A stretch of DNA of 37,810 nucleotides from NCBI GenBank assembly GCA_017617915.1, contig JAFZVH010000046.1, positions 1 to 37,810 of the forward strand, given 5' to 3'. Shown here in pieces: positions 15,755-34,651 of the stretch. The number at the start of each line of letters is the position of its first letter. The stretch's first letter is position 1. The notes below the pieces were generated by a model that worked only from the letters and a program-made list of their open reading frames with translations, was not told the origin of the DNA and did no database searches. The translations under genes were made by a program, and so were the position numbers. Source of the DNA: Alphaproteobacteria bacterium. GTDB taxonomy: Bacteria; Pseudomonadota; Alphaproteobacteria; Rs-D84.

Positions 15755-16834
15755 TTATCTCTTTATCGGGGCGTCCAGAACCGTTTCATCGCGTATCATA
15801 TCCAGTGGATAGAACTGGAACGGAACAGTTTCAAAGTCTATGCCGCGGATGTCTATGTGTCGCAATGTACGGTTATACATAGTGTGATAATATATCTGGC
15901 CATGCGTTATGTCGGTTGCAACTGTCCACTGGGTCGCCGAAGGCATATCGAAACTGGGCGTTTGGGTCGGCTGGGTCGTGCCGAATGGAACATCCATATT
16001 GTTCAATATATGAAACGCTTGCTTTATTGTTTGGTCGCCTGTCGCTTGCGGAATCGCAAAGTCGCGGAAAAATGTCGCGCGAACGAATCGCGACGGCGAA
16101 GAAAAGTCGCCCGGCAATCCCATCAGGCCTGTGCCATGACTTAGTGATTGCAGTTTTAATGGCCCGAATTTGACCGGCTGGGTCGTGCCAGATTTCAGGT
16201 TGATATAGTTGTTCAGGTTCGTCAAATGCCATGGCAGGCCCGGCGCGTTCGCGATAACTCCGTTCGGGTTGTCGTAAAATGTCGCAACACCGTCGATGAT
16301 TTCCATAACTACTTGGCGCCCCGACGGTTCGGTAATGCGCCAATGCACAGTCGATGCAGTTGGGTCTATGTTGATGATGCGGACACCGTCGATTGCGTCT
16401 TTGAGTTGGTCTATGGTTGAAAATTGCGACAGTATCCATGACACGACCTGAAAGTCCGCCAATGATATGTCGCGCGTGGCGGCGGAATAGGGCCGATATT
16501 TACCAAAGCGCGGGAAATAGAACAGTTCCGCGGACAGGCCGACTTCGTTTGTGCCGTCAACGATGAATTCTGGGCGCTGCATCCCAAGGCCAACAAAGCC
16601 GTATTTTGCGGTGAACTTTACGCCATTTTGTGTGCCGTCTGGCAACAGTGACTGTTCAACGTGGCCGCGCGGAACAATGACATAGATATTGTTCATTTCG
16701 GACCCTGACCAATCGACAGTGCGCGCAACAACGACCGATTTATCAAGCGCCTGCATAGTGATGCCTGTACAGGCGGACGCAGAATTTATGGCACCAATTA
16801 TGGCGCAAATTGCAAAGATAGAAATGTGTTTCAT
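15755..16834 (-). CDS. Choloylglycine hydrolase / penicillin V acylase family amidase, secreted
   Basis: 359 aa. Signal peptide 1-21 (MKHISIFAI...NSASA), so the mature enzyme would begin with Cys22, the Ntn-hydrolase nucleophile. The other family residues are visible: Arg38 and Asp41 (VVARTVDW), the Asn of DGTNEVGLSAELFYF, the Asn of VIANAPGLPWHLTNLNNY, and the Arg of SPSRFVRATFF. This family hydrolyses linear amides such as conjugated bile salts, penicillin V or acyl-homoserine lactones; the substrate here cannot be decided from sequence. The Sec signal places it in the periplasm, as for Gram-negative members. AAAGGAAAA precedes ATG 16834. A longer frame to 17056 is excluded because it reads antisense through tRNA-Gln. 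Monocistronic, with its own terminator. Confidence 0.9.
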   Translation of the reverse strand: MKHISIFAICAIIGAINSASACTGITMQALDKSVVVARTVDWSGSEMNNIYVIVPRGHVEQSLLPDGTQNGVKFTAKYGFVGLGMQRPEFIVDGTNEVGLSAELFYFPRFGKYRPYSAATRDISLADFQVVSWILSQFSTIDQLKDAIDGVRIINIDPTASTVHWRITEPSGRQVVMEIIDGVATFYDNPNGVIANAPGLPWHLTNLNNYINLKSGTTQPVKFGPLKLQSLSHGTGLMGLPGDFSSPSRFVRATFFRDFAIPQATGDQTIKQAFHILNNMDVPFGTTQPTQTPSFDMPSATQWTVATDITHGQIYYHTMYNRTLRHIDIRGIDFETVPFQFYPLDMIRDETVLDAPIKR

Positions 16835-16864
16835 TGGGTTTTCCTTTGGTTTGGTGATGCCTGA

Positions 16865-16870
16865 ATTATA
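16865..16870 (-). promoter_or_regulatory. -10 box of the amidase gene
   Basis: TATAAT on the - strand, about 31 bases upstream of ATG 16834. No good -35 is visible at 16-18 bases. Confidence 0.5.
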
Positions 16871-16921
16871 CGCGGTTTTGCGCCAAAAAGGCATAGGAAC
16901 GAATGCGCCCGCATTTTTTAT

Positions 16922-16950
16922 TTGCAAAAGCCGAAAGCGCGTTTTATAAT
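16922..16950 (+). promoter_or_regulatory. Promoter of tRNA-Gln
   Basis: TTGCAA (16922-16927), 17-base spacer, TATAAT (16945-16950). Start near 16957, four bases before the tRNA. Confidence 0.8.
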
Positions 16951-16960
16951 GGCGACCACT

Positions 16961-17034
16961 TGGGGCATAGTTTAATGGTAGAACTCCGGACTCTGACTCC
17001 GTCAGTGTTGGTTCGAATCCAGCTGCCCCAACCA
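16961..17034 (+). tRNA. tRNA-Gln (CTG anticodon)
   Basis: A full cloverleaf: acceptor TGGGGCA/TGCCCCA with discriminator A and an encoded CCA (17032-17034), D arm GTTT/GAAC, anticodon loop CTCTGAC (anticodon CTG), T arm GTTGG-TTCGAAT-CCAGC. The outer pair of the anticodon stem is C-T, a mismatch; E. coli tRNA-Gln has C-G there. The gene reads CAG codons. Its 3' end is duplicated downstream (see 17202). Confidence 0.95.
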
Positions 17035-17035
17035 A

Positions 17036-17077
17036 GATAAAATAAAAATGTCCCAACGGGGCATTTTTATTTTATCA
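17036..17077. terminator. tRNA-Gln terminator, long AT-rich palindrome
   Basis: GATAAAAATAAAAATG pairs with CATTTTTATTTTATC (one bulged A) around TCCCAACGGGG. A near-identical copy of the hairpin, including the CAACCAA before it, is at 17862-17906. Confidence 0.85.
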
Positions 17078-19768: not shown

Positions 19769-20524
19769 ATGAGGCATTTTATATCAAATTTTGTTTGTTT
19801 ATTTATTCCGCGCAAATCCCTGCGGGACAAGGTGAGGACGCTGTTGTACTATCGACCACAAGTGCGCGAATACAGGCGTTTTGTGCGCGACTATGCGCGG
19901 CGGCACAATATGAAACGGTGCAAAATGCAAATCAAAGTTGGCTGGATTTGCTGTAATTTAATCGTAATTTTGAATAATAAATGTGTGTTTAAGTTTCCAC
20001 TGAAAAGTGATGGACGGGAATTGGCAACGCGCGAAAAACGAATAACTGATGCTTTGCGCCCGATTTCGCCGATTAAAATTCCAGAAATGGAAATTATTCC
20101 TTATAAAGATATCGTTGTTAAGAAGTATGAATTTGCGCGCGGAACTTTGTTTTCTGAACTGTCGCCGTCCGATGTGGCACAGCATTCCCAACATCTGGCG
20201 CAACAAATTGCAAACTTTCTTTATGTGTTGGCCAAGGCGGATCCAAAAGAACTGCGTGATTTGAAACAGAAACCGAACGAGGCGCCAAAGTTTTTATATG
20301 GGTGGAATCATGGCGATATTTGGCAGAATTTTATGGTTGACCCCAAGACTTTCGATATTACTTATTTTATAGATTGGGAATCGGCAAATTTTGGTTCACT
20401 GTATCCTTGTTTGTATTCTGCGGACTATCACTGGGTTCGGTTTGATTATCGTGGCTTGGCGATTTACATTATGGCCGAATATGCGAAACTCTATTATAAC
20501 GGCGCGAGTGTAAAAGCCAAATGA
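19769..20524 (+). CDS. Aminoglycoside-phosphotransferase-like kinase, 251 aa
   Basis: Kinase fold of the APH/choline kinase type. Lys74 in CVFKFP is the likely ATP-binding Lys, and the Glu in TREKRITDAL fits the helix-C Glu. The catalytic loop reads HGDIWQN (H181, D183, N187) and the metal-binding segment reads FIDWE (D202). The small size and the N-terminal MRHFISNFVCLFIPRKSLRDK, which resembles the first residues of some LPS/capsule enzymes, suggest a sugar kinase for surface glycans rather than an antibiotic resistance enzyme; this is inference. The next gene overlaps by ATGA (20521-20524) and is a paralogue (about 45% identical over the shared core by eye), so the two are translationally coupled. 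Confidence 0.75.
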   Translation: MRHFISNFVCLFIPRKSLRDKVRTLLYYRPQVREYRRFVRDYARRHNMKRCKMQIKVGWICCNLIVILNNKCVFKFPLKSDGRELATREKRITDALRPISPIKIPEMEIIPYKDIVVKKYEFARGTLFSELSPSDVAQHSQHLAQQIANFLYVLAKADPKELRDLKQKPNEAPKFLYGWNHGDIWQNFMVDPKTFDITYFIDWESANFGSLYPCLYSADYHWVRFDYRGLAIYIMAEYAKLYYNGASVKAK

Positions 20525-21228
20525 AAAAGGTTCTTGTGAATGTTTTATGTATGTTTGTACCAACACGCCAACGGCGCAAGGCATTGCGTATGGAATTGAC
20601 GCACCCGATTCGCCGGTGGACACGTTTTGCCAAGTCTTTCAGTAATATGGCGCATCCACGCGCAAGATATACTTATGGTTTTCGTTGTATAAATTTTGTT
20701 GTAACGGTTGATGATAAGTTTGTGTTTAAATTTCCGCTAAATGGTGATGGTGTGGCGGTTGCGCGGCGCGAAAAGGCCATAACTGATGCTTTGCGTGCGA
20801 TTTCACCGATTAAGATTCCACAAATGGAAATATTGAATTTTGATGGTCTTGCGGTACGCAAATACGAGTGTATAAATGGTATAGGTTTTCATTCTTTGAC
20901 CCGCGAAACGCAAACTGCACACGCAGATAAAATTGCGCGGCAACTTGCGCGGTTTCTGTACATTGTTGGGCGCGCCGATCCGATAGAGATTCGTAATATG
21001 AAAGACAAAAAATCTGATAAACCTGGGTTGATGTATGGATGGAATCAGAATGACCTGTGGGATAATTTTATACTGAATCCAAAAACGTTTGATATCGTTG
21101 GAATTATAGATTGGGAAGAGGCGGTTTTTGGCGATTTCTCGCGCAGTTTTACAAGTGGTATCGGTAATGGTGTTATCAAAAGTGCACTGTTGCGAGAGTA
21201 TTTAAAATTATATTTGCGCTATAAATAA
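20521..21228 (+). CDS. Paralogous kinase-like protein with altered catalytic loop, 235 aa
   Basis: Tandem duplicate of the preceding gene: shared blocks FVFKFPLNGDG, REKAITDALRAISPIKIP and NPKTFDI...IIDWEE. Where the first protein has HGDIWQN, this one has QNDLWDN (residues 176-182): the catalytic Asp and the Asn stay, but His and Gly are replaced. It may be a weak kinase, one with another substrate, or a regulatory partner of the first. Its start overlaps the first gene's stop (ATGA). A gap of 106 bases without a clear terminator separates it from the next gene. Confidence 0.75.
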   Translation: MKKVLVNVLCMFVPTRQRRKALRMELTHPIRRWTRFAKSFSNMAHPRARYTYGFRCINFVVTVDDKFVFKFPLNGDGVAVARREKAITDALRAISPIKIPQMEILNFDGLAVRKYECINGIGFHSLTRETQTAHADKIARQLARFLYIVGRADPIEIRNMKDKKSDKPGLMYGWNQNDLWDNFILNPKTFDIVGIIDWEEAVFGDFSRSFTSGIGNGVIKSALLREYLKLYLRYK

Positions 21229-21334: not shown

Positions 21335-24300
21335 ATGAAAAAATTCCATAGAGTTCACAATATTGTTTTGGGTGTATCGGTTTTGCCGGCACTGTTGATT
21401 ATGCCTGCGATGGGCGCAGCACCGAATTTGGATGGTGATGCATTTTTGTTCGGTGATGTAAATTGGACAAATCAAAACGTTGCATATGGTCAGGCAGCCT
21501 TTGGCGGACGCCGTATGAATGTTTGGAATGGGCAGCAGTATCAGAATGATTTCCCTCAGTATCAAATGGCGGGTCGTTCTTTGACAATGTCTAGCAGTGA
21601 TATTTATGTTGGACCTGTGACGTTGACCTTGCGTGAATTGGGCGCAGACGAAGCGTTCAAATTTAATTACCAATGGATAGTTAATAATGACCCAGAAACA
21701 GATATAGATTTAGCATCTGATGAATGGGCGGGTGTTAAGTGGAATGATAGCTATCATTCGGTAACAGACGAAGAAACAGGTGATGTATTATCTGTTGGTG
21801 TGTATGAAAAGCTGAGTAGTGTAATTGGCGCTTCAAATGCGAATTATACAGCAAACCCTGTGTTTGTTATGTCGCGGCGTGATGATGATGTAGCGGCGGG
21901 TTCAATGTCCTTTACTGGTACAACGGCGATGATAGACGGTTCGACCATAAATGCTGACTCTATTTCTGTTACGGATGGATCGGTACTTACAATCGCAAAC
22001 CAAGATCACAGCAAACTTGGTGCATTTTTGCCGGGTGATATAGATTCGGATGGTGTTACGACACTGAATGCAAGGACAATAGATATTGACGGTTCGCGGA
22101 TATTGGTAAATGAAGACGCGTCTTTGACGGTTAATGCCACAGAAAGAGCAACTTTCGAAAATGGTGTTACAAATGGTTATGGCGGTATGTTGTATAATAT
22201 GGGTAATGTTACGATTTCCAATGCAACATTTGATAACAATCATACATCTACCGAAGGGTATGGTGGCGCTGTATTTAACGGAATGGGGTTATTGACATTA
22301 AATAATGTAACTTTTGAAAATAATGGTGCCGATTATGATGGTGGGGCCATATCAAGTGCTACCTCTAATATTAGAGCAGACGCAAAACCCGATGATTTTA
22401 CAGCAGATGTTATAAATGAAACAACCGTAAGGGCTTACTGGGCGTCCAAGAATGGATTCGACGCCAAAAATAAAATGATCATTACAGATTCTACCTTTGA
22501 TCATAATACGGTGAATTTGTATTCTGGGGGGGCATTAGGGGTTTATTCTGATGCCTTTATCCAAGGTTCGCATTTTACTGATAACAATGCAGGTGGACAT
22601 ACCCCGGCCGATTCGACCGATGGTGGTGGTGCAATATATGCGGGCGGTTGGGCTCGCCTTGACATTAATGATAGCGATTTTTCGGATAATAGTTCCAATT
22701 ATGGTGGCGCCATAGCGACAACGCGTGCGGGAAAAGAGAATGGGATATATCTGCATATATCAAATTCTGAATTTATACACAATACCGCAACTGTTGCGGG
22801 TGGTGCGATTGCCAATGATTTTGCGGATGCTATATTTACAGATGTTAAATTTGCTGACAACACAGCGAATGATATGGGGGGCGCGATATACAACAAGAAT
22901 GGTTTAACCATTGCGGCGCGGAATAAAGATGTAACCTTTGCAAACAATACCGCAAATGGCAGTGCGAATGATATCTATAATGCGGGCAGTTTGGCATTGG
23001 ATGCGTCGGCAGGTCGTTTGATTTCTTTGGCGGGCGGTATTGATGGTGTAAGTGGTACATTGGATATTGTCGGCGATGGAACAGTTGATATTGCAAATGC
23101 ATTGAAAAACCAAACGGTTACTCAAAGTGCAGGCGAATTGCATTTGCGCGATGTTGATTTAACTGGTTCGACGATTGCTGTTGGCAAAAACGCAACAATC
23201 AATACAATTGATAATGCGGTAAATGATTACTCTTCGTTTATTACACTGGCGGATGGCGCAAGCGTTCGCGCGGATGCAACGGATACCGCAGCGGATAAAT
23301 TTGCACTGGCGACGGATAAAACGGTCAATTTAACCAGTTTGAATTTGCTGTCCGATTTCACAGGCGAAAAAATAAATCAACTGACATCTTCTGGTAAGAT
23401 TGCGGTCGCAGACACTGTTAAGACTTATACTTCAACAACCAAGTACACAGTTGCGGGCTCAAGTGATAACAGTGGAAACATTACCATTACAAGTGCGGGT
23501 ACAGGTGGTTTGTTCGCGGCGGCGGATGATACAACCACAGGCACGCGTGAAGCAGTTACTTATTCTGTAACGGCGGACGATACGACGGTGGCATCGGCGG
23601 CTGAAATTAAAAATGCAGATTTAATTGTCAAAGGTAATGGTGCAACCAATCAGGTGTCTTTGGATGCTAATCTGACGGTTGGCGATACATCCAGTTTGAC
23701 AATCGAAGATGCAAGTTTCGCGGGTGCTGGCACTATTGAAAACAAAAGTGGCGGTGTTTTGACTATTTTGGATTCGATAATTGCGACAAATATCAATAAC
23801 GCAGGTGTGCTGTATTCAGATCCGACAACATATTCTGCTGTTGTATCTAACAGTGGAACAGCGTCATTTGATGCGGATACATTTGATACAACCGCAACAT
23901 TAAACAACACCGGCATAGTAAATCTGTTAAATGGTGTTATCTTTAATGATGGTGCAAAGATTACCGGTAATGGAGTGACCAATTTAGTCAGTGGGGAAAC
24001 GGTGTTCAATAATACTGTGTCGTCAAATACAGTTAAATTGGCAAAAGGTGCGGACTTTTCGGGTATATTGACTGGTACAGGTGCATTGGATACGCGCAAT
24101 GACACAATTGATGAAATCACTGGTGGTGTTGCGGGTGGTAACCTGTACGTTGATGCCAAGTTAAGGGGCGTAACAGGCGCAATCGACACTTTGGCCAGTT
24201 CAACAGGCGCGACCATCAAGGAAATCAATATTACTGATTCTGAATACGGCACAAATGGCTCGTATGCTCTGACAGTTGGTGATGCTTTGTTGGCCAACGA

Positions 24301-26497
24301 TTTAAAAATCTCTGGTAATATGAACTATTTCACCAAGGTATCGAAAAACGGTAGCGATGTAGTATTCAGTGATAAACTGATGAATACATCTGGTATGCAT
24401 AATCAGTTAGGTGATTGGGCAGATGGTAATTATATTTCTGCATCCAGTACATATGACACCACAACAGATGCATATACTGCACAAGGTCAGACTGTCGGCC
24501 AGGCTTTGACAGCATTGGATAATGCAATGGCAAATGTTGCCGTAACCGCAAATGCAGGTGATTTGCACACGGCAATTAATACAATTATGACTTATCCTGG
24601 TGTTTCTGCAGATGATAAGAGAGATGCCTTGGCAGGATTGTTAACAACGGGGACGGTTGCAGACCAAACCCTTACGGCGGCATCTACTGCTGAAGCAGTG
24701 TCCAGTTACTTAATTCTGACTGGCGACTTAATGTCTGAATATGACTTTGGTTGGGATATCAATACTGGGTTGCAGAACGACTTGGATGCCAATGATAAAT
24801 ACAAAATTGCTGTGCTGAATAATACGGCTGTGACAGACAAAACTGTTGCGGGCGCAATCAATGCTAATACAGCAAGTATAAATGCGTTGGATTCGGCAAT
24901 GACGGGCAAGCAGTCGTTGATTGATGACGAAAACAAACTTGCGGCATCGTTGATTGAAACAAGCACAAGTGCACAATTTGTGTCTGCGGCAGAAAAGTCA
25001 ACATGGAACGGAAAACAGAATGCGATTACTGACAGTTCTACAATTGCAAAAGACGGAACAGGACTGAAGATTGTCGATCATTCTGTTGGTTCAACCCAAT
25101 TGTCTTCAGATGTTAATACATTGTTAACAAAGGCTGGTACTGCATTACAGACATCGGCTTTGACCAATACTAATTTGAGTGGTACCACACAGGCGGCTAA
25201 TTTGACATTGTCGGGAAATCTGACTCTGGGTGGCGTTACAACAAATGGTATTGATACGGTAGTGACAGCGGAAAGTACAAAACTGATAACATCTGGTGCG
25301 GTAAGCACTGCGATCACAAACGCATTGGAAAACAGCGGTTATCAAACATCTGAGAATGTTAATACATCAATTGCAAACAATGGACAAAACGCTGTATATA
25401 ATGCAAATACTGTCCAAGCAGGTACAGTTGGTAAGGCTATCAAAGATATCAATGATGTTATGGGGACAATTAATGGTTTGATTGCCAGTGCAGACGCAAC
25501 TACAACATCAAACAATGTGACACCATACAGTGGAAACTTGGCGGTTGGAACAACCGTAGAAGGACACTTGTTGGCGTTGGATGCATCGATTGGTGATATG
25601 CGTGGTTTTGCGGCAACCGATGGAACGGGCAATACCTATGCGACCAATACAACCAGTGTCGCTGCTAACTTAGTGGCCTTGGATGGTGCAGCACAAACAA
25701 ATGCCCAAGCGATAAGCGATTTGGAAACCGTTGTAGGCCATGCAAGTTCGGGTACTAATGCGGCAACAGGTTTGTTTGCAAATGTCGAGACAAATGCAAA
25801 TGCGATTGCAGTATTGAATGGCGATGAATCGGTTGCAAATTCTGTTGCAAATAAGATCGCAACGGCTTTGGCAGATAGCGGCATGATGACAACAGGAAAT
25901 GTTACTGCGGCGATTGTATCGCAAGGTCAAAATGCAACATATAACGTAAATACTGTTCAAGCTGGCACGGTTGGTAAGGCAATTGCTGATAATGCAAGTG
26001 CAATCGAGGACATCAATGATTCTGCTGTGATGCAATCTGGTATTACCAGTGAAAAGGTTGCTTTGATTGATACCAATGCAGCAGATATAGCAGCGGAAAG
26101 AACACGTGCGATGGATGCGGAAACAACTTTGCGTAACGATTTCGCAAGTGCGGATACCTTGACTTTGGTTGATGCCAAGAATTTTGCCGCGCAACGTGAT
26201 GCGTTGACACTGGGTGCGGCGAATGCCTATACTGACAGACAAGTCGAAAAGTTGGATAAGAACTTGTCTGCTGGTGTTGCTGGCGCAGTTGCATTGTCTT
26301 CGGTTGCGGTGTCTAATGTTCATCGTGGCGAAGTATCTGTTGGCGCCGGATATGGTTACTTTAATGGTCAGTCCGCAGGTGCCTTTGGTGCGGCGATGGG
26401 GCTGTCAAACAGATGGTCGGTTAATGCCGGTGCGGGCGTGTCGGGATATGATGTATCCTTCCGCGCAGGTACGAATTATAAATTCAAATTGTTCTAA
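21335..26497 (+). CDS. Giant surface adhesin: Pmp-like beta-helix plus YadA-type trimeric anchor, 1720 aa
   Basis: Signal peptide about 1-28 (ends MPAMGA). Residues ~285-535 carry Chlamydia Pmp-like GGA(I/V/L) and FxxN motifs (GGAVFNGMG, FENNGADYDGGAI, FSDNSSNYGGAIA, FADNTANDMGGAIYN), a right-handed beta-helix signature. A long Thr/Asn/Ala-rich passenger follows. From ~1010 a stalk appears, with two copies of a unit GQNA-x-YN-x-NTVQAGTVGKAI (about 1348 and 1531) and heptad-like segments (LVALDGAAQTNAQAISDLE). Residues ~1627-1720 are a YadA-type anchor: AYTDRQVEKLDKNLSAGVAG, AVALSSVAVSNV and GEVSVGAGYGYFNGQSAGAF, ending in Phe. YadA anchors form trimers in the outer membrane, whereas Pmp passengers are usually on monomeric autotransporters, so the combination is unusual. 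AAGGGGGA precedes the ATG. Confidence 0.85.
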   Translation: MKKFHRVHNIVLGVSVLPALLIMPAMGAAPNLDGDAFLFGDVNWTNQNVAYGQAAFGGRRMNVWNGQQYQNDFPQYQMAGRSLTMSSSDIYVGPVTLTLRELGADEAFKFNYQWIVNNDPETDIDLASDEWAGVKWNDSYHSVTDEETGDVLSVGVYEKLSSVIGASNANYTANPVFVMSRRDDDVAAGSMSFTGTTAMIDGSTINADSISVTDGSVLTIANQDHSKLGAFLPGDIDSDGVTTLNARTIDIDGSRILVNEDASLTVNATERATFENGVTNGYGGMLYNMGNVTISNATFDNNHTSTEGYGGAVFNGMGLLTLNNVTFENNGADYDGGAISSATSNIRADAKPDDFTADVINETTVRAYWASKNGFDAKNKMIITDSTFDHNTVNLYSGGALGVYSDAFIQGSHFTDNNAGGHTPADSTDGGGAIYAGGWARLDINDSDFSDNSSNYGGAIATTRAGKENGIYLHISNSEFIHNTATVAGGAIANDFADAIFTDVKFADNTANDMGGAIYNKNGLTIAARNKDVTFANNTANGSANDIYNAGSLALDASAGRLISLAGGIDGVSGTLDIVGDGTVDIANALKNQTVTQSAGELHLRDVDLTGSTIAVGKNATINTIDNAVNDYSSFITLADGASVRADATDTAADKFALATDKTVNLTSLNLLSDFTGEKINQLTSSGKIAVADTVKTYTSTTKYTVAGSSDNSGNITITSAGTGGLFAAADDTTTGTREAVTYSVTADDTTVASAAEIKNADLIVKGNGATNQVSLDANLTVGDTSSLTIEDASFAGAGTIENKSGGVLTILDSIIATNINNAGVLYSDPTTYSAVVSNSGTASFDADTFDTTATLNNTGIVNLLNGVIFNDGAKITGNGVTNLVSGETVFNNTVSSNTVKLAKGADFSGILTGTGALDTRNDTIDEITGGVAGGNLYVDAKLRGVTGAIDTLASSTGATIKEINITDSEYGTNGSYALTVGDALLANDLKISGNMNYFTKVSKNGSDVVFSDKLMNTSGMHNQLGDWADGNYISASSTYDTTTDAYTAQGQTVGQALTALDNAMANVAVTANAGDLHTAINTIMTYPGVSADDKRDALAGLLTTGTVADQTLTAASTAEAVSSYLILTGDLMSEYDFGWDINTGLQNDLDANDKYKIAVLNNTAVTDKTVAGAINANTASINALDSAMTGKQSLIDDENKLAASLIETSTSAQFVSAAEKSTWNGKQNAITDSSTIAKDGTGLKIVDHSVGSTQLSSDVNTLLTKAGTALQTSALTNTNLSGTTQAANLTLSGNLTLGGVTTNGIDTVVTAESTKLITSGAVSTAITNALENSGYQTSENVNTSIANNGQNAVYNANTVQAGTVGKAIKDINDVMGTINGLIASADATTTSNNVTPYSGNLAVGTTVEGHLLALDASIGDMRGFAATDGTGNTYATNTTSVAANLVALDGAAQTNAQAISDLETVVGHASSGTNAATGLFANVETNANAIAVLNGDESVANSVANKIATALADSGMMTTGNVTAAIVSQGQNATYNVNTVQAGTVGKAIADNASAIEDINDSAVMQSGITSEKVALIDTNAADIAAERTRAMDAETTLRNDFASADTLTLVDAKNFAAQRDALTLGAANAYTDRQVEKLDKNLSAGVAGAVALSSVAVSNVHRGEVSVGAGYGYFNGQSAGAFGAAMGLSNRWSVNAGAGVSGYDVSFRAGTNYKFKLF

Positions 26498-26521
26498 TTA
26501 TAGAAAATTTGAATTCGAATT

Positions 26522-26552
26522 GTGTGGGCGCAAGTGCGCCCACATATTTTTT
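26522..26552 (+). terminator. Intrinsic terminator after the YadA-type gene
   Basis: GTGGGCGC-AAGT-GCGCCCAC (26524-26543) followed by ATATTTTTT. Confidence 0.9.
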
Positions 26553-26564
26553 AGAATTTTATTC

Positions 26565-26593
26565 TTGTGTTATAGGCGCGTGCAGTGTATCAT
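26565..26593 (+). promoter_or_regulatory. Promoter of the 1265 aa autotransporter gene
   Basis: TTGTGT (26565-26570), 17-base spacer, TATCAT (26588-26593). Start near 26600, with AGAGAGGGA before TTG 26620. Confidence 0.55.
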
Positions 26594-26619
26594 ATTACTT
26601 GTTAAAGAGAGGGAATAAA

Positions 26620-29600
26620 TTGAAGAAATATTATGTTATTTTATTAGGTGCATTTGTTTGTGCAGTATTTGGCGACTCGTCTGTATTTGCTGACATTATT
26701 ACAACCAGACAGGAAGTGAATGATGGCAATGAACTGACTGTTAATGCTGATTTATACCAAGGCATAAATAATCCTTGGCTTGACGGGGGTGCGATTTGGA
26801 ATGCGGGCACATTGACGGTGAATCAGGGCAGTTTTACGGGTAATGTGGGTAAAAATGGTGGTGCAATTTATAATTCTGGTACGACTGTTATAACCGGGGG
26901 AACTTTTTCAGGAAATACTGGGCGGGCCAATGGTGGCGCAATATATTCTTCTGGAACCTTGACGATAAACTCAAGCGCAGCTAGGGGGGTGTTGTTTGAA
27001 AATAACAAGATGGTTGGTAATGCGGCGAATGATATCTATTTGGTTGGTGTTGATGCGGATAATCGTACAGTATTAAACCTGAATGCTTATGATGCGCAAA
27101 CGCATAACATTCAATTGAATGGCGGTATTGCGGGCGAATATTATGATATCAATATAAATGGTAATGCTGGGTATACTGGTCGGGTTGTTGTTGGTAATTT
27201 AACAGGCGCGAGTAATTTGACAATAAGTGCCGGTGAACTGGTTGTGTTGGGGGGCGCTAATAATGGTCAGATATCTGGTACAGGTACATTTGTCGTTGGT
27301 AATGGCAGTGCGTCGGTTACGTATAATAATGCGGGATTTATTTCCGCACCGGTAAATATTGCAGCAAACGGAACATTGTCTACTGATGCGCATTTCTTGC
27401 ATTCAGATGTTGTGAATAATGGGGTATTGCAACTGAATGATGCAAGTTTAAGTCATAATATTACGGGTGGTGGAATAACGCGCATAAATGGAACAGTTTC
27501 AACTTCGGCAACCATTGCAAATTCCATTAGTATTTTGTCAAACAAATCTTTGACCGCGGCATCGGCGAATTTGTTGGCTGGTACGGTTGCAAATTCTGGC
27601 ACATTGACATTGAATGGTGGAACATTGTCGACAAATATCACTGGCGTTCCTGGGCAAACCGTTATAGATGGCACGGTTATTGCGGCGTCTAGTGTCAACA
27701 TCCAAAACGCTGTCACAATAAATTCTGGTAAATCTTTGCAAATAAATGCCTATGGTTTGCATGGCGCAGTGGATAATTCTGGAACATTATTCTTGGGCGA
27801 TGGAACTTTGGCCAGGTCGGTAAGTGGAACTGGTACAACGCATATTTCGGGTGTGGTTTATTTGAATGATTCAATTTCAAATGCGATAGTGATAGATGAT
27901 GAAAATGAATTGACGGCCAATGCAGACAATATTGGTGGTGATTTAGATAATCAAAATGGAACATTATTTTTGACAGGCGGTGCTTTGGGGCACAGTGTTT
28001 CGGGTGCCGGTAATACGCATATCACAAATACTGTTGAATTTGCAGATAATATCGGTGTTGCCAATGTTGTTACGGTTGATGCAAGCAATCAGTTGACTGC
28101 AAATGCAAGTGCTTTTCAAAACGCTGTTATAAATCAGGCAGGCACATTGACATTGAACGGTGGGTTGTTATCGGCAAATATTACTGGGGCAGGTAGCACA
28201 CATATCGTCAATGATGTCACAGTAAATGCAGATGTTGCAAATGATTTGTATTTGGATAATACCAGTGTCACAACCTTTGGCACCAGTGGTGCGATTACGG
28301 ATGGTGGAAGAATTGTTGCAAATGGTGGTGGGTTATCATTTATAGATGATGTGATAGACACAATCGATTTACAACAGATTGACTTGCAGCAAAATATGAA
28401 TGTTGCATTGGATTTGAATTTGGCGGACTTAACATCAGATGTATTTAGTGCAAACTATGATACGCATAGTGCGGCAAACAAGTGGGTTATTGTTTCAAAA
28501 TTGAATTTGATGACAAATACTACGAATTTGATAGACGATGATACGACACTGCATATTGTTGATGGCACAATCGGAAGCAAAGTCAAACTTGCGGATAATA
28601 TAGAATTTGTAAACGCAGGCGATATAGCAAGTGTATTGTTGGGATATAATTATAATGCAACCACAGGGGGCGATATAAAACTGTCCTATGCTACGATTGA
28701 AGATGCAGTCACATCGGCGGTCGCGTCAGACAAGACAATTGTGTTGGGGCAAGATACCAATGTTAATTCTGGTGCGGCATTGGTCGGCAATTCTTTGGCG
28801 ATTTCTGGCGCAAATCATTCCATTACTGGTGACGGGAATACGGGTATTTCTGTATCCAGTGGTCAAGATTTAACAATATCAAATGTTTCTGAAATTAGTG
28901 GTTTTACTAATACAATAACAAATAATGGTGGAACAGTGTCTTTGTCCGCGGTGAATTTTGCGAATTCGGCGACAACAGATATTGTGAATAATTCTGGTAC
29001 GTTGAATTTAAATAATGTCCAGATCAACGCTATTTCAAATGATGGCGCACTGAATTTAATTGGCGATGTTGTTTTGAACGGCGACATCACAGGTGGTGGC
29101 GATTTGTTGGTTGATTCAGGTGCTGTGTTGAATTTGGGTGGTCAAGCGATAACTCAAGATAGTATCACTGTCAATGGTCTGGTTCAAACATCTGTGTCGA
29201 ACATGGGGCATTTGACCGCAGGTGTAATCGGTGGCGATGGCGTGTTAGAATTGTTGGATGTGCGCGCGTCTGGTTTGTATGATTTGTTTGAAGGTGTTTC
29301 AACTTTGCCAGTTGATGCAGGTGCTTTGTTTAATACAACAAATACTGCATCGGGTGTTTTAGTAGAAATAAAACCGGCAGATGAAATAGTTATGGCATAC
29401 GATATTAGTACCGATGCGGCCAATACGATAGTGAATTTAGCGAACACAACAGATGATGGTTTAGTTGATGTTGGTGTGCGTATGCGTGATGAATTGTTGG
29501 CTGGCAATACAGATTTTGTAGAACGTGTTACCGATTCTTTGAATCCTGAAACGGGCGCAGTTGTGCAATCTGTTCATACTGTTGCACGTGATGTTGTAAG

Positions 29601-30417
29601 TAAAATTGCCACCGCCAGAGATACCATCAAACCGTCAAAGGCCGACAAAGGTGTTGCGATTTGGACCCAAGGTATTTATGCACATACTAAACAAAATGAT
29701 ATGTTCGGTGGCAATATGCATGGTGTTTCTGGTGGGGTTGTTCAATTTGATGCGAATAAATTGTTTGGACTTGGGTATTCATTTGGGCATTCTGATATTT
29801 TGACCAATTCGCGTGATATAGATGCAGATGCATCAACATTGTTCTTGTATGGGCAATATCGGCGTGCAAATTGGTATGCAAACGCAATGTTGAATTATAC
29901 AGTGTCTGATTTTACCGAAGATGCGAATATATCCGGTATAAAGATTGTCGCAAATTATGATGCTAAATCTTATGGCGCCCAGATTATGACAGGTTATGAT
30001 TTCACAGATGGTATGACACCAGAAATTGGGTTGCAGTATATGCATATGGATATCGATGCATATAAGAATTCTTTGGGGGTTAAAAACAGTTTTGAAAGTT
30101 CTGATTATTTGACTTTTGTGCTTGGTACAAAGTATGCGCATGACTTTGATATTGCAGGCAAAGTGTTGTTGCAACCCCAAGCGCACTATGCATTAAAATA
30201 TGATATGCTGTCTGATACTTCAACTGTCACAGTGTCTACGCCAGATGTTGCATCTTATACGTTGGATGTTGAACGTTTGTCGCGTATGGCGGGCGAATTG
30301 GGAATTGGACTTAGTGCAAAATACCGTGGATTTAATTTATCATTGAATTATGATTTAGAATTGCGTGACGGGTACAGTGCACAATACGGTCGTGTGAAAC
30401 TTAAATATAATTTCTAG
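26620..30417 (+). CDS. Classical autotransporter with repeat passenger, 1265 aa, TTG start
   Basis: Start TTG 26620 is chosen: GAGAGGGA lies just upstream and the signal peptide (KKYYVILLGAFVCAVFGDSSVFA) begins there. The longer frame from 26509 runs back through the previous terminator. The passenger opens with beta-helix turns (NGGAIYNSG, NGGAIYSSG) and a segment AANDIYLVG...IQLNGGIAG that matches the 1720 aa protein's ANDIYNAG...ISLAGGIDG. Five ~60-residue repeats follow (residues ~260-552). A last ~260-residue autotransporter beta-domain starts near GVAIWTQGIYAHTK, with paired strands (WYANAMLNYTVS, YGAQIMTGYDF) and the usual terminal Phe (VKLKYNF). The product should be a surface-displayed, perhaps adhesive, protein. 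No protease motif was seen. It is adjacent to the YadA-type gene but has its own promoter. Confidence 0.88.
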   Translation: MKKYYVILLGAFVCAVFGDSSVFADIITTRQEVNDGNELTVNADLYQGINNPWLDGGAIWNAGTLTVNQGSFTGNVGKNGGAIYNSGTTVITGGTFSGNTGRANGGAIYSSGTLTINSSAARGVLFENNKMVGNAANDIYLVGVDADNRTVLNLNAYDAQTHNIQLNGGIAGEYYDININGNAGYTGRVVVGNLTGASNLTISAGELVVLGGANNGQISGTGTFVVGNGSASVTYNNAGFISAPVNIAANGTLSTDAHFLHSDVVNNGVLQLNDASLSHNITGGGITRINGTVSTSATIANSISILSNKSLTAASANLLAGTVANSGTLTLNGGTLSTNITGVPGQTVIDGTVIAASSVNIQNAVTINSGKSLQINAYGLHGAVDNSGTLFLGDGTLARSVSGTGTTHISGVVYLNDSISNAIVIDDENELTANADNIGGDLDNQNGTLFLTGGALGHSVSGAGNTHITNTVEFADNIGVANVVTVDASNQLTANASAFQNAVINQAGTLTLNGGLLSANITGAGSTHIVNDVTVNADVANDLYLDNTSVTTFGTSGAITDGGRIVANGGGLSFIDDVIDTIDLQQIDLQQNMNVALDLNLADLTSDVFSANYDTHSAANKWVIVSKLNLMTNTTNLIDDDTTLHIVDGTIGSKVKLADNIEFVNAGDIASVLLGYNYNATTGGDIKLSYATIEDAVTSAVASDKTIVLGQDTNVNSGAALVGNSLAISGANHSITGDGNTGISVSSGQDLTISNVSEISGFTNTITNNGGTVSLSAVNFANSATTDIVNNSGTLNLNNVQINAISNDGALNLIGDVVLNGDITGGGDLLVDSGAVLNLGGQAITQDSITVNGLVQTSVSNMGHLTAGVIGGDGVLELLDVRASGLYDLFEGVSTLPVDAGALFNTTNTASGVLVEIKPADEIVMAYDISTDAANTIVNLANTTDDGLVDVGVRMRDELLAGNTDFVERVTDSLNPETGAVVQSVHTVARDVVSKIATARDTIKPSKADKGVAIWTQGIYAHTKQNDMFGGNMHGVSGGVVQFDANKLFGLGYSFGHSDILTNSRDIDADASTLFLYGQYRRANWYANAMLNYTVSDFTEDANISGIKIVANYDAKSYGAQIMTGYDFTDGMTPEIGLQYMHMDIDAYKNSLGVKNSFESSDYLTFVLGTKYAHDFDIAGKVLLQPQAHYALKYDMLSDTSTVTVSTPDVASYTLDVERLSRMAGELGIGLSAKYRGFNLSLNYDLELRDGYSAQYGRVKLKYNF
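27397..28276 (+). repeat. Five degenerate ~180-base coding repeats in the autotransporter passenger
   Basis: Each unit follows a pattern close to (L/I/F)-x-(G/N)-x-V-x-N-x-GTL-x-L-x-(G/D)G-x-L-x3-(I/V)(T/S)G-x-G-x-T-H-I. The copies begin near 27397, 27577, 27760, 27934 and 28114. They differ at DNA level, so the duplication is old. Confidence 0.75.
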
Positions 30418-30480: not shown

Positions 30481-31581
30481 TTATGCCGCTTTTTTGATTC
30501 CTGTTTTGATACTGCGAACATATTTACGCAGTTCATCGATAGACACCAGTTTGCCATCGCGTTTTTCCGCCGACCAATAATCCCAACCATTATAACTGAC
30601 GCTGTGTTGCATACGTGCCGCCATAACATGAATGGATGCTTTGCCATACAGGCTGTGTACCAAATTACCGTCTGCTGTAATCATCGCGCGTTCGCCGCGT
30701 GGACTAACCAAACTTTGCCCAACATACAGCAAGCCACCTTCGATAAGTTCGCTGAATGCGACACGAATTTCATCGCGTTTAGGTTTAGCAACCTCGATAG
30801 CCGACAAATCGCGTGGAACAACATTTGCAACCCGTTCGCGTGCCGCCATAACATAAGATTGTTCGCGGTCAATGCCAATAAACCTGCGCCCTAATTCTTT
30901 TGCGGCGGCGGCGGTGGTACCACTGCCCACGAATGGGTCAAGAATTATGTCGTTTGGTTTTGTTGATGCCAAAATTACGCGGCGCAACAAATCGATAGGT
31001 TTTTGTGTGTTGTGCAAACTTTTGCCATTTTCATCTTTCAAACGTTCTTCCCCAAGGCAAATATTCATTTCCCAATCAGAACGCATTTGCTTGCCGCCGT
31101 TCAATTTTTTCATAGTTTCATAATTGAAAGTATATTTGCCGGTCTTGGTCGGTGTTGCCCATATCAGTGTTTCATGTGCGTTCGTAAAACGCGTGCCACG
31201 AAAGTTCGGCATAGGATTTGTTTTTACCCAAACAATATCATTCAAAATCCAAAAGCCCAGTTCTTGTAAAATTGCCCCCAGATGGAATATGTTGTGGTAA
31301 GAGCCCATTGCCCACATTGCGCCAGTTGGTCGTAAAACGCGTTTGCATTCTGTAAGCCAGGCGCGTGTAAATTCTTTGTATTCGTCTGTTGATTCAAAGG
31401 TGTCCCATTCGTCACGTACCGCACGCGCAGCAGTCTGATCTTCGGGGCGATAAAGAGTTTTCTGACCCAATTGCAAATTATACGGTGGATCGGCAAATAC
31501 CGCATCCACAGAACCGTCGGGAATGCCCCGCATAAGTTCTATGCAATCGCCAAGTAAAATTTTGTTTAGGTATTTGTCCAT
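30481..31581 (-). CDS. ccrM: CcrM-type DNA adenine methyltransferase (GANTC)
   Basis: 366 aa, close to Caulobacter CcrM (358 aa). A beta-class N6-adenine methyltransferase: DPPYNLQL (motif IV) near residue 32 comes first, then the recognition region (MPNFRGTRFTNAHETLIWA, MRSDWEMNICLGEERLK), then the SAM motif DPFVGSGTT. The C-terminal ~85 residues (FSELIEGGLLYVGQSL...NGWDYWSAE) are the CcrM-specific extension used in DNA binding. It methylates the A of GANTC after replication and links the cell cycle to transcription in alphaproteobacteria. The start is ATG 31581 behind GAGAGAG; an upstream TTG at 31602 falls in the -10 box. It is divergent from nrdR. Confidence 0.95.
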   Translation of the reverse strand: MDKYLNKILLGDCIELMRGIPDGSVDAVFADPPYNLQLGQKTLYRPEDQTAARAVRDEWDTFESTDEYKEFTRAWLTECKRVLRPTGAMWAMGSYHNIFHLGAILQELGFWILNDIVWVKTNPMPNFRGTRFTNAHETLIWATPTKTGKYTFNYETMKKLNGGKQMRSDWEMNICLGEERLKDENGKSLHNTQKPIDLLRRVILASTKPNDIILDPFVGSGTTAAAAKELGRRFIGIDREQSYVMAARERVANVVPRDLSAIEVAKPKRDEIRVAFSELIEGGLLYVGQSLVSPRGERAMITADGNLVHSLYGKASIHVMAARMQHSVSYNGWDYWSAEKRDGKLVSIDELRKYVRSIKTGIKKAA

Positions 31582-31601
31582 AAAACTCTCTCGTATGAAC
31601 A

Positions 31602-31610
31602 ATTATACCA
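31602..31610 (-). promoter_or_regulatory. Extended -10 promoter of ccrM
   Basis: TGGTATAAT on the - strand (31610-31602) with no clear -35. Start near 31595, giving a 14-base leader. I saw no GANTC site in 31600-31740. Confidence 0.6.
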
Positions 31611-31704
31611 TATTTTGTGTTTAATTTTTTGATAGCAAAGCGTGTAATTGTAAAAAAAAGTCTTGATTTTTTATAAAAATATCATTTTTTGAAAATAAAA
31701 ATGC

Positions 31705-31733
31705 TTTACTCTTGGCGAATAGATTGCTAAATT
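31705..31733 (+). promoter_or_regulatory. Promoter of nrdR, predicted leaderless
   Basis: TTTACT (31705-31710), 17-base spacer, TAAATT (31728-31733). The start point would be 31740-31741, the A of the nrdR ATG. Confidence 0.6.
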
Positions 31734-31740
31734 ATGCCGT

Positions 31741-32241
31741 ATGAGATGCCCTTATTGTAATTATGCAGACAGCAGGGTCGCAGATTCGCGCCCTGATATG
31801 GAGAGCGGAACTATCCGCCGTCGGCGCGTTTGCAATCAGTGTGGTGCTAAATTCACAACGGTTGAACGGGTTCAGATGCGTGATTTGGTCGTGCGCAAAA
31901 ACAGTGGCAAGACCGAAGCGTTCGATCGCGATAAACTGAAACGCAGTATCAAATTGGCTTGTCATAATCGCGAGGTTGGGGACGAACAGATTGAACGTTT
32001 GGTTGCGTCGATTCAGCGCAGATTGGAAACAGAAACGATTGACGATATGGTCACCAGTGCCCAGGTTGGTGAAATGGTTTCTGATTCTTTGTTGAATTTG
32101 GACCCGATTGCGTTTGTGCGATTTGTTTCGGTTTATCGCAAGTTTTCAAAAATTTCTGATTTTAAAAAGATTATTGACACTATCCCAGAGGTTTCAGATG
32201 ATGCGGTTGTTTGTAAACTGCCGAAAACATCATTGTTCTGA
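31741..32241 (+). CDS. nrdR: Transcriptional repressor NrdR
   Basis: 166 aa, slightly longer than usual. The N-terminal zinc ribbon has C3, C6 (MRCPYC) and C31, C34 (CNQC). It continues into the ATP-cone domain (RDLVVRKNSGKTEAFDRDKLKRSIKLAC) and ends with the family motif DPIAFVRFVSVYRKF. NrdR senses ATP/dATP and represses ribonucleotide reductase genes by binding NrdR boxes. The ATG has no ribosome binding site, and the -10 box is only 7 bases away, so the mRNA is probably leaderless. The lytic transglycosylase gene follows after 11 bases, as an operon. Confidence 0.96.
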   Translation: MRCPYCNYADSRVADSRPDMESGTIRRRRVCNQCGAKFTTVERVQMRDLVVRKNSGKTEAFDRDKLKRSIKLACHNREVGDEQIERLVASIQRRLETETIDDMVTSAQVGEMVSDSLLNLDPIAFVRFVSVYRKFSKISDFKKIIDTIPEVSDDAVVCKLPKTSLF

Positions 32242-32252
32242 AAGGTGCATAA

Positions 32253-33974
32253 ATGAAGAAAATCCTGATTCTGGTTTTATTAGCGTTTATGCCAATGTGC
32301 GGTTTTGCGACTGTGCATATTGATGTGCTGTCCGATGCAGATGAAAGTTTATATTCTCAGATTTTTACTTTGCAAGACGCTGAAAAAATTGCCGCCGCAG
32401 AAAAATTAGAACGGCAAATTTCTGATCCGATTTTGAAAAACGAGATTTTATTTCAACGTTATACTTCCAAGACTTATCATACCAAGGGAACAGAAGTAAA
32501 ATCTTGGATGGACAAGTATGCGAATATGCCGGGCGCGGCGCGAATGGAAAAGTTGGCGCGCATAAAACAGGTTAGTGTAAAATCTGCAAGTGTTCCAAAC
32601 ATATTATCTGGTGGTGGGTCGATTGAAACGGCGCAATCTGAAACTTGGACGGCAAAACATTACAAAGATTCGGTTGAATCAACCATCAAGAAATTCAAAA
32701 AGGCTATACGCAGCGGCAGCACCAAGACCGCGCGCAATATATTGGAAGATAAATCTTTCCGCCGCAGTTTAACAGAATCTGACTATGGGCGTTTGGCGGG
32801 GCGTTTGTCGTATGTTTATTACACAAATGGCGAAGATGAACTTGCAAAAAAGTGGGGTTTTGTGGCGTCTGATGCAAATTCTGAATATGGTCTTTGGACT
32901 ATGGGGTTGTTGTATTTCAAAGAGAAAAAATATAAAGAAAGCGAAAAATATTTCAGTAAAATTTTGCAACTTGAACAGATAAACAATGCCCGCAAGACCG
33001 AGGCGGCTTTTTGGGCTGGGCGCGCCGCAGATGAAAATGGCGATTGGGGCGCGGCAAAAAAATATTGGAAGATTGCGGCGGCATATCCAATGGCCTTTTA
33101 TGGTGCGTTGGCGGCGACAATGCTTGGTGATGTTCCAGAATATGAATTTTTTGAACAAGAATTGTCCGATGAAGATATTGAAGAACTGCGGCGCAATAAG
33201 TATGGGAAAGTGGCGCTGGCATTATTGCAGGTGAACCGCAAAGATCGTGCGGAAGAATATCTGAAATATATGATAACTGCGCGTGCGACAGATAAAAGTT
33301 TGCATTCGATAAATTCTGTGGCGACGGCGTATGGTTTGCCACGTGTGGCTATTCAGGCATCTGGTGTTATTCGTGACCGCGGCATTTTGGAAATCGACGA
33401 AGATGTGATTTATTCTGCGCAATATCCTTTGCCAGATTGGGAACCTATGGGCGGCTGGTCTATTGACAGGGCATTGTTGCTTGCCATAACGAAACAAGAA
33501 AGTGGTTTCAGGACAAATGTTAAATCGGGTGCAGGCGCAAATGGTTTGATGCAAATTATGCCCAGTACCGCAAAACGTGTTGCACGCGCAAACAAGGTCA
33601 AGATGTCTGATATAGATATGTCTAATCCTGAACATAATATGTTCTTGGGGCAACAATATATTGTTGATTTGCTGGAACATCCAAATATTCACAACAATAT
33701 TATTAAAATGCTGATTGCATATAATGCAGGTATGGGGTCATTGGTCAAATATGAAAAAACTTTTGAAACAAACGATCCGTTGTTGTATTTGGAAAGTTTT
33801 CCGGCATACGAAACGCGCGGGTATATAAAACGTGTGATGGCGAACCTGTGGTTGTATCGTGCGCGGTTGGGACAGCCGTTAACGACATTAAAGGTTTTGG
33901 CGGATTCCAAATGGCCTCTTTATAACAGTGAAGATGAATTTGTTCGGACTAAATCGATTCCATATTCTATTTAA
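32253..33974 (+). CDS. Soluble lytic murein transglycosylase (Slt70-like)
   Basis: 573 aa. Signal peptide about 1-19 (ends CGFA). A long alpha-helical superhelix (about 40-380), with TPR/HEAT-like pieces such as YGLWTMGLLYFKEKKYKES, matches the Slt70 U-shaped domain. The C-terminal SLT domain holds the catalytic Glu (AITKQESGF, about residue 416), then GANGLMQIMPSTA and IAYNAGMGSLVKY, the classical SLT motifs. It cleaves the MurNAc-GlcNAc bond of peptidoglycan in the periplasm, forming 1,6-anhydroMurNAc. AAAGGTG precedes ATG 32253. It is cotranscribed with nrdR, and rnhB begins directly at its stop codon. Confidence 0.93.
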   Translation: MKKILILVLLAFMPMCGFATVHIDVLSDADESLYSQIFTLQDAEKIAAAEKLERQISDPILKNEILFQRYTSKTYHTKGTEVKSWMDKYANMPGAARMEKLARIKQVSVKSASVPNILSGGGSIETAQSETWTAKHYKDSVESTIKKFKKAIRSGSTKTARNILEDKSFRRSLTESDYGRLAGRLSYVYYTNGEDELAKKWGFVASDANSEYGLWTMGLLYFKEKKYKESEKYFSKILQLEQINNARKTEAAFWAGRAADENGDWGAAKKYWKIAAAYPMAFYGALAATMLGDVPEYEFFEQELSDEDIEELRRNKYGKVALALLQVNRKDRAEEYLKYMITARATDKSLHSINSVATAYGLPRVAIQASGVIRDRGILEIDEDVIYSAQYPLPDWEPMGGWSIDRALLLAITKQESGFRTNVKSGAGANGLMQIMPSTAKRVARANKVKMSDIDMSNPEHNMFLGQQYIVDLLEHPNIHNNIIKMLIAYNAGMGSLVKYEKTFETNDPLLYLESFPAYETRGYIKRVMANLWLYRARLGQPLTTLKVLADSKWPLYNSEDEFVRTKSIPYSI

Positions 33975-34592
33975 TTGGTGGTGCCAGTGTTAGAGGTCGC
34001 AGATTTTTCATTGGAACGTGAATGTTGTGGTGTTGTTGCGGGCTGTGATGAAGCAGGCCGCGGTCCTTTATGTGGCCCTGTTGTTGCGGCGGCGGTTATT
34101 TTCCCAAGTTTTGATATAGATATTCCGGTGGTTATTCGTGATTCTAAACAAATGTCTGCGCACCAACGCGCGGTTGCATACGATTGGATAACACAAAATA
34201 CAATATGGGCGGTCGGCGAATGCAGTGCGGCCGAAATAGACGAGTTGAATATACTCTGGGCGTCAATGCGTGCAATGGAACGTGCGGTTGCGGGACTTAG
34301 TCTGCAGCCAGATATGTGTTTGGTTGATGGTAATCGTGTGCCAAAAAATCTGATTGGACGTGCGGTTGTGCATGGTGATGCGCGGTCGCTGTCTATTGCG
34401 GCGGCGTCCATAATTGCCAAGGAAACACGTGATAAAATTATGCGGGAACTGGCGGACAAATTCCCAATGTACGGTTGGGATAAAAATGCGGGCTATCCTA
34501 CCGCAGAGCACCTGCGCGCGATTGAAAAATATGGCATAACCGAACATCATCGCAAAACTTTCGGCCCAGTTAAGAAATGCCTTTTAGGTTGA
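33975..34592 (+). CDS. rnhB: Ribonuclease HII
   Basis: 205 aa. Catalytic motifs are present: GCDEAGRGPLCGPVVAAAV (Asp, Glu), DSKQ, LVDGN (Asp) and ASIIAKETRDKIM with HGD before it; the end, YPTAEHLRAIEKYGITEHHRKTF, is typical. It degrades the RNA strand of RNA-DNA hybrids and removes misincorporated ribonucleotides. The start is uncertain: TTG 33975 touches the stop of the upstream gene (TAATTG), and GTG codons at 33978, 33981 and 33987 are alternatives. No Shine-Dalgarno is visible, so coupled re-initiation is likely. Confidence 0.93.
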   Translation: MVVPVLEVADFSLERECCGVVAGCDEAGRGPLCGPVVAAAVIFPSFDIDIPVVIRDSKQMSAHQRAVAYDWITQNTIWAVGECSAAEIDELNILWASMRAMERAVAGLSLQPDMCLVDGNRVPKNLIGRAVVHGDARSLSIAAASIIAKETRDKIMRELADKFPMYGWDKNAGYPTAEHLRAIEKYGITEHHRKTFGPVKKCLLG

Positions 34593-34617
34593 TTTTGCAG
34601 GTATAAAATGTTATAAC
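34589..34617 (+). promoter_or_regulatory. Promoter of pgk
   Basis: TTGATT (34589-34594, overlapping the rnhB stop), 17-base spacer, TATAAC (34612-34617). Start near 34624, and AAAGGAG precedes ATG 34652. Confidence 0.65.
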
Positions 34618-34651
34618 TTTGCCACTGATTGTTTATAAGAAAGGAGAAAAG

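Follow-up and report, generated by a model that had tools for sequence, protein, structure and literature searches.

Monomeric (type Va) and trimeric (type Vc) autotransporters are usually kept as separate classes, each with its own kinds of passenger. According to PMC6555100, type Va passengers are usually β-helices, and type Vc proteins are highly intertwined trimers; in PMC7247746, TAA trimers are likewise highly intertwined, and the left-handed β-roll and the β-prism suffice for most TAA heads. Among monomeric proteins, the chlamydial Pmps carry paired FxxN and GGA[IVL] motifs in the rungs of a right-handed β-helix; their repeat is divided from a middle region, proposed to be the first to fold, by one rung in which an Asp is fully conserved (PMC10715098). 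A short linker joins the Pmp passenger to a monomeric-type transmembrane barrel. The two classes have been combined by engineering: Hbp was fused to Hia β-domains, in a work that also cites surface-displayed Hap-Hia fusions (PMC5802855), and a trimeric anchor can therefore carry such a passenger when engineered. A search of open PMC papers gave no published natural β-helix passenger on a trimeric anchor. At the locus described here, related passengers are found on both anchors.

The window, meaning the whole stretch of 37,810 nucleotides that was analysed, is the entire contig C21 of a MAG of 725,819 bases. It contains an open frame (Table 1) that starts with ATG and encodes 1720 amino acids without an internal stop, at an even GC of 0.40–0.45 throughout (600-base steps). 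Like YadA, Hia and AtaA of type Vc, the encoded protein has an N-terminal signal, a long predicted helical stalk, a four-strand PF03895 anchor and a C-terminal Phe; unlike the heads of that type, its head is predicted to be a right-handed β-helix and has homologues on monomeric anchors. The paired motifs of its rungs are those of the Pmps, yet the chain ends in a YadA anchor.

Table 1. Features of the YadA-anchored gene and its surroundings (positions in the window; residues of the encoded protein)
Feature	Positions	Strand	Basis or remark
Two kinase-like genes, second matching APH above cut-off	19769–21228	+	Also adjoin many relatives of both anchor types
Whole gene	21335–26497	+	One chain, from beta-helical passenger through helical stalk to YadA anchor
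Signal peptide-like start MKKFHRVHNIVLGVSVLPALLIMPAMGA, residues 1–28	21335–21418	+	By eye from the sequence
N-terminal beta domain, residues 30–268	21422–22138	+	Identity search and AF2 model
Pmp-type beta-helix rungs with GGA[IVL] and FxxN, residues 270–560	22142–23014	+	PF02415, POMP_repeat, AF2 model
Junction rung TFANNTANGSANDIYN...GGIDG, residues 533–572	22931–23050	+	Common to both anchor classes
Adapter beta-helix, residues 573–1014	23051–24376	+	Present only in YadA-anchored proteins
Most conserved block (alignment A1), beta-helix end to stalk entry	23915–24529	+	Ends NY[YF]T...F[SG]DKLxN, TVGxALTALD
Helical stalk, residues 1054–1656	24494–26302	+	AF2 models; in the second, confidence is low except towards the C-terminus
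First GQNA...TVQAGTVGKAI unit GQNAVYNANTVQAGTVGKAI, residues 1350–1369	25382–25441	+	Exact letters
Second GQNA...TVQAGTVGKAI unit GQNATYNVNTVQAGTVGKAI, residues 1531–1550	25925–25984	+	Exact letters
YadA anchor PF03895, four predicted membrane strands, residues 1667–1715	26327–26485	+	Pfam, AF2, Foldseek
Next gene: Pmp-repeat autotransporter with type Va barrel, in tandem	26509–30417	+	POMP_repeat; barrel identity to relatives
Locus flank: ccrM-like DNA methylase (− strand), nrdR, SLT transglycosylase, rnhB, pgk	30481–35818		Conserved

The initial annotation, made from the letters of this stretch, had taken GGAI and FxxN repeats for a Pmp-type β-helix set on a YadA-type anchor. This core reading is borne out by profiles, by two structure models, by fold matches and by its recurrence in relatives. 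For the passenger, the window protein matches Chlam_PMP of Pfam (PF02415, E 1.6e-9, above the curated cut-off) as well as POMP_repeat of NCBIfam (TIGR01376); beyond this repeat, neither collection gave a further Pmp family match. An AF2 model of residues 28–1120, made from 18 sequences (mean pLDDT 83.9, pTM 0.69), places a β-helix at 28–1014, a low-confidence linker of about 40 residues behind it, and then a helix at 1054–1086. In VIA-align, on which the fold assignment is based together with the profiles, pertactin comes out on top (Z 23.8, 325 residues, 4.1 Å), followed by phage tailspikes and alginate epimerases (Z 20–23.5) and by other right-handed β-helices. Foldseek returned no match to this model at E≤0.001, its best being Ag43 (E 2.7e-3), and phmmer found none among PDB sequences at 0.1. 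Taken as a model, a right-handed parallel β-helix of the Pmp/pertactin kind is supported for the head. Pertactin and Ag43, the type Va proteins with the best fold matches, share this right-handed β-helix; type Va proteins have a 12-strand single-chain barrel, whereas the window protein has four strands. PF03797, the Pfam profile of that single-chain barrel, is absent from the window protein and from all 12 YadA-type proteins collected here, which have the same architecture and come from different, mostly rumen, Alphaproteobacteria assemblies. It could be argued that GGAI and FxxN arose here by chance and that the protein is an ordinary trimeric adhesin, its head left-handed as in YadA; GGA-like motifs are indeed possible in glycine-rich repeats. 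This is very improbable, given the pertactin-like fold and the presence of PF02415 in all 12 proteins; at E≤0.01 the sole Pfam family found in them besides PF02415 and PF03895 is Beta_helix PF13229, itself right-handed, in one member, and no YadA head or stalk model is matched.

At the C-terminus, the YadA anchor claimed in the initial annotation is recovered by a clear Pfam match (PF03895, residues 1665–1717, E 4.7e-8, above cut-off) and by structural comparison. The second AF2 model covers residues 1040–1720 (33 sequences, mean pLDDT 63.5, pTM 0.27); poorly resolved along the stalk, it ends in one long helix (1564–1656) followed by exactly four strands. Its five matches in Foldseek at E≤0.001 are all anchors, those of AtaA (9vnj), Hia (3emo, 2gr7, 2gr8) and YadA (2lme), with target TM 0.71–0.86. 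Both copies of the GQNA...TVQAGTVGKAI unit noticed earlier in the stalk are there to the letter. Hydrophobic periodicity gave no clear heptad in most segments: 56 of 200 shuffles were as high as the whole stalk, and 13 of 200 as high as its best segment, 1450–1600. Some type Vc members have an extended signal peptide, the ESPR, which is not obligatory; its profile (PF13018) matched none of the 12 YadA-type proteins at E≤0.01. A YTD motif precedes the anchor in 8 of 11 YadA-type members (L143 was excluded from this count and from alignment A5), and in the window protein it resembles the YxD folding motif cited in PMC6555100. The four strands of one chain are too few to close a barrel of this kind; going by the known anchors, we infer that the window protein would assemble as a homotrimer.

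The initial annotation had, moreover, imagined three β-helices side by side on the trimeric stalk. Three helices on one stalk would follow from four strands per chain and the trimer they point to; their lying side by side is not favoured. The likeness to phage tailspikes is relevant here, as these also consist of right-handed β-helices, three per assembly, although tailspikes are not known to have an outer-membrane anchor or export stalk. Pam1, CBA120 TSP3 and Sf6, which are trimers, are among the close fold matches, and the title of the P22 tailspike structure entry states a trimer as well. A trimeric stalk would bring three helices together, and they could then pack into one prism-like head in the tailspike manner. 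We consider this somewhat unlikely. Large hydrophobics occupy rung positions at the same frequency in YadA-type (0.267, 88 rungs) and type Va proteins (0.266, 363 rungs; L139, with a different barrel, excluded), and the largest single-position difference between the classes is 0.13 (permutation p 0.16). This equal composition, a weak and indirect test, does not point to a specialised packing face and speaks slightly for separate arms; the low-confidence linker that leads from the end of the β-helix to the start of the stalk also argues against a prism.

An assembly error joining two genes had been named as an outcome that would refute this reading. The MAG lies in 58 contigs and is 88% complete with 5.74% contamination, and in another genome positive for the A1 block (G149) the gene is divided between two contigs, both of which would suit an assembly or binning artefact. 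Against it, the same block recurs at eleven further loci in other assemblies, on contigs of up to 688,656 bases (another being of 415,725 bases); 11 of the 12 proteins, each of them one open frame, match both profiles; a well-conserved, class-specific adapter bridges the join; and GC does not shift over the window frame. An artefact is therefore hardly credible.

Looking for the same architecture in relatives, as the initial annotation had proposed, gave the 12 proteins of alignment A3, of which all have PF02415 and 11 have PF03895; the single exception (L143) lies on a contig that ends inside the stalk, before the anchor. A scan of species genomes with A1 returned 11 loci in Alphaproteobacteria or proteobacteria MAGs, several of them from the rumen or abomasum of roe deer, sheep, yak and water buffalo; the open frames of L153 and L154 span 1994 and 2090 codons. 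The block is present in 11 of 156 genomes of the window's genus, in none of the 45 genomes of the order outside it (11 of 201 in the order, all in the genus) and in none of the 27 family genomes outside it (11 of 183 in the family). PF03895 by itself was detected in 59 of the 156 genomes; among 43 anchor frames other than the window's in the first 96 genomes, five are long with repeated GGA motifs, and the others are shorter stalk-type frames or contig ends. A whole-protein scan for relatives gave 37 pattern matches, none of them confirmed. PF02415 was detected in 9 of 398 genomes of a phylum sample, by a search that may be insensitive to the 19-residue repeat; one of the eight besides the window's also has PF03895, on a separate frame. 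It is worth adding that the anchors of L037, L153 and L154 are of another sequence type, with AFRAGITFGL or RAGVTFGW at the end; exchange may thus have affected the anchor as well.

The same passenger is found on monomeric barrels. Residues 1–582 of the window protein, used as query, have relatives in 68 of the 156 genus genomes. Forty of these relatives were fetched: 34 have a type Va barrel (in L110 it is cut within the barrel), three a YadA anchor, one (L143) is cut in the stalk and two are cut before any anchor. With the window's next gene included, and with L106 and L118 dropped as their contigs end before any anchor, the type Va set has 35 rows, PF03797 being matched in 33 and PF02415 in 31. 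The N-terminal domain (30–268) is 31–54% identical to that of 10 type Va proteins, four other YadA-type proteins and one protein truncated before its anchor. Window residues 235–553 share 59% identity with type Va L105, and residues 4–615 share 37% with type Va L107, while the similarity to the YadA-type L108 extends to residue 1065. At the DNA level, among the best seven matches per gene, each of the 12 YadA-type loci has counterparts in type Va genes, 65–86% identical; within these best seven, and with approximate gene starts and L146 left uncut, partners and segments differ from locus to locus, and among the matches listed all precede the junction wherever it was located.

This junction is a rung with the consensus FxGNxAxGxANDI[YH]N...GGIxG, common to both classes, and homology between the classes ends soon after its ANDI[Y/H]N...GGI. 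Behind it, HHalign gave a probability of 1.5% between the classes, compared with 100% between two halves of the YadA set. All downstream sequence was therefore exchanged as a block. From junction to C-terminus there are 425–497 residues in 30 of 35 type Va proteins and 973–1699 in 10 of 12 YadA-type proteins; the segment between junction and barrel takes 167–198 residues in 29 of 30 type Va proteins, and the YadA-type adapter 443–497 in 9 of 10. The junctions were located by a regular expression, L109 and L143 giving no match and L139 being kept (it is also in alignment A4); where it matched twice, we used the earlier match for L153 and L154, and the later match for L051. There are thus two cassettes, one of a constant size of about 480 residues for type Va and one of about 970–1700 residues for type Vc, the latter with its own conserved adapter. 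By analogy, the conserved Asp of ANDI may be the counterpart of the conserved Asp of the Pmp rung.

Both classes also occupy the same locus. Ahead of the methylase-nrdR-transglycosylase-rnhB-pgk flank lie eight YadA-type loci (the window, L145, L147, L148, L150, L151, L152 and L155) and four type Va loci (L170, whose fetched stretch stops before pgk, L181, L182 and L183); the remainder of the 18 stretches taken around type Va genes do not reach the methylase or lack it. By tblastn at 1e-6, a type Va barrel is absent from seven of the eight YadA-type loci, the window being the sole exception, and a YadA anchor from all four type Va loci. The tree of the five flanking proteins requires three changes of anchor type, all of them forced by well-supported branches, and a single clade of YadA-type loci is rejected (AU p 0.00066). 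The N-terminal domain tree (16 rows), in which 5 of 13 inner branches are well supported and some end branches are long, requires three changes as well, two of them forced, and again rejects one clade of YadA-type passengers (AU p 0.0033). Since relatives carry matching β-helices on either anchor, the anchors have apparently been swapped repeatedly.

The window itself holds both kinds of gene in tandem, 11 bases apart by longest ORF, although the true start of the second is probably near 26599 or later. The barrel of this second gene reaches 51% identity with type Va relatives, yet has no PF03797 match; to the type Va barrels at the same locus in G054 and G104 it is only 46% identical, while those two are 89% identical to each other. 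A recent fusion through deletion between the tandem genes was also considered and was rejected, the G054 and G104 barrels not being the closest to the window's. With both gene types side by side, part of the pattern could be gene loss and not cassette exchange, and an ancestor with a tandem of the two genes, followed by differential loss, could turn the three changes on the flanking-gene tree into losses. As an account with no exchange at the locus, this is unlikely: all loci but the window show a single anchor type by tblastn, as given above, the window's type Va barrel is distant from the G054/G104 pair, and YadA-type passengers are not one clade. Above all, N-terminal domain, rungs and junction are common to both classes at up to 59% identity, and therefore at least one exchange must have joined one passenger to different C-termini. 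Loss from a tandem ancestor could thus explain part of the locus pattern, not the shared passenger.

Built on the computed domains, folds, breakpoint, shared locus and repeated changes of anchor type, the interpretation that we hold to be quite likely is that of a type Vc autotransporter with a Pmp/pertactin β-helix head of about 1000 residues, displayed in threes as a multivalent adhesin, in a family that arose by exchange of C-terminal cassettes. The chain would be exported by Sec via its signal peptide, and a single 12-strand barrel would be built by three chains, with four strands from each. The stalks would traverse this barrel and then coil, and outside the cell surface the β-helix of each chain would fold rung by rung from the adapter towards the N-terminus, leaving three β-helices on one stalk with a presumptive role in adhesion. 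At the locus, the N-terminal domain, Pmp rungs and junction would be kept, followed by either the monomeric or the trimeric cassette. In contrast to the man-made Hap- and Hbp-Hia fusions, this is a natural family, in which an adapter of its own links β-helix and stalk. Perhaps, and we propose this tentatively, cassettes are naturally exchanged at this locus, one β-helical adhesin having been switched in evolution between single and threefold display; the adapter of about 440 residues would be a dedicated converter that seeds three separate helices, and the heads would form a third TAA head class. Related passengers on both anchors would isolate the effect of copy number, one versus three, on adhesion; the model of folding-driven secretion becomes testable with three β-helices on one pore; and the family offers a natural design for showing β-helical proteins in threes.

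Several minor observations can be added. A third Pmp-repeat autotransporter of the window's genome (L136, contig C1) is a type Va protein of 812 aa, and the stretch just before the barrel of type Va L111 is 68% identical to it. L037, L045, L054, L109 and L113–L116 have an N-terminal extension, approximately MKQ[ST][RK]T..KELTA.YRAVLRHG, before the hydrophobic signal; such extensions occur on both anchor types, with a related form on some stalk-only TAAs, and in the 12 YadA-type proteins Pfam ESPR does not match the extension. For the kinase-like pair ahead of the gene, a role in surface decoration would be a guess. Elsewhere in the window, five long frames (297–901 aa) between 264 and 10001 are without a Pfam match at 0.001. 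Finally, a tRNA-Gln at 16961–17034 overlaps the N-terminal end of a choloylglycine-hydrolase frame on the opposite strand (15755–17056), so the TTG start of the latter is probably placed too early.
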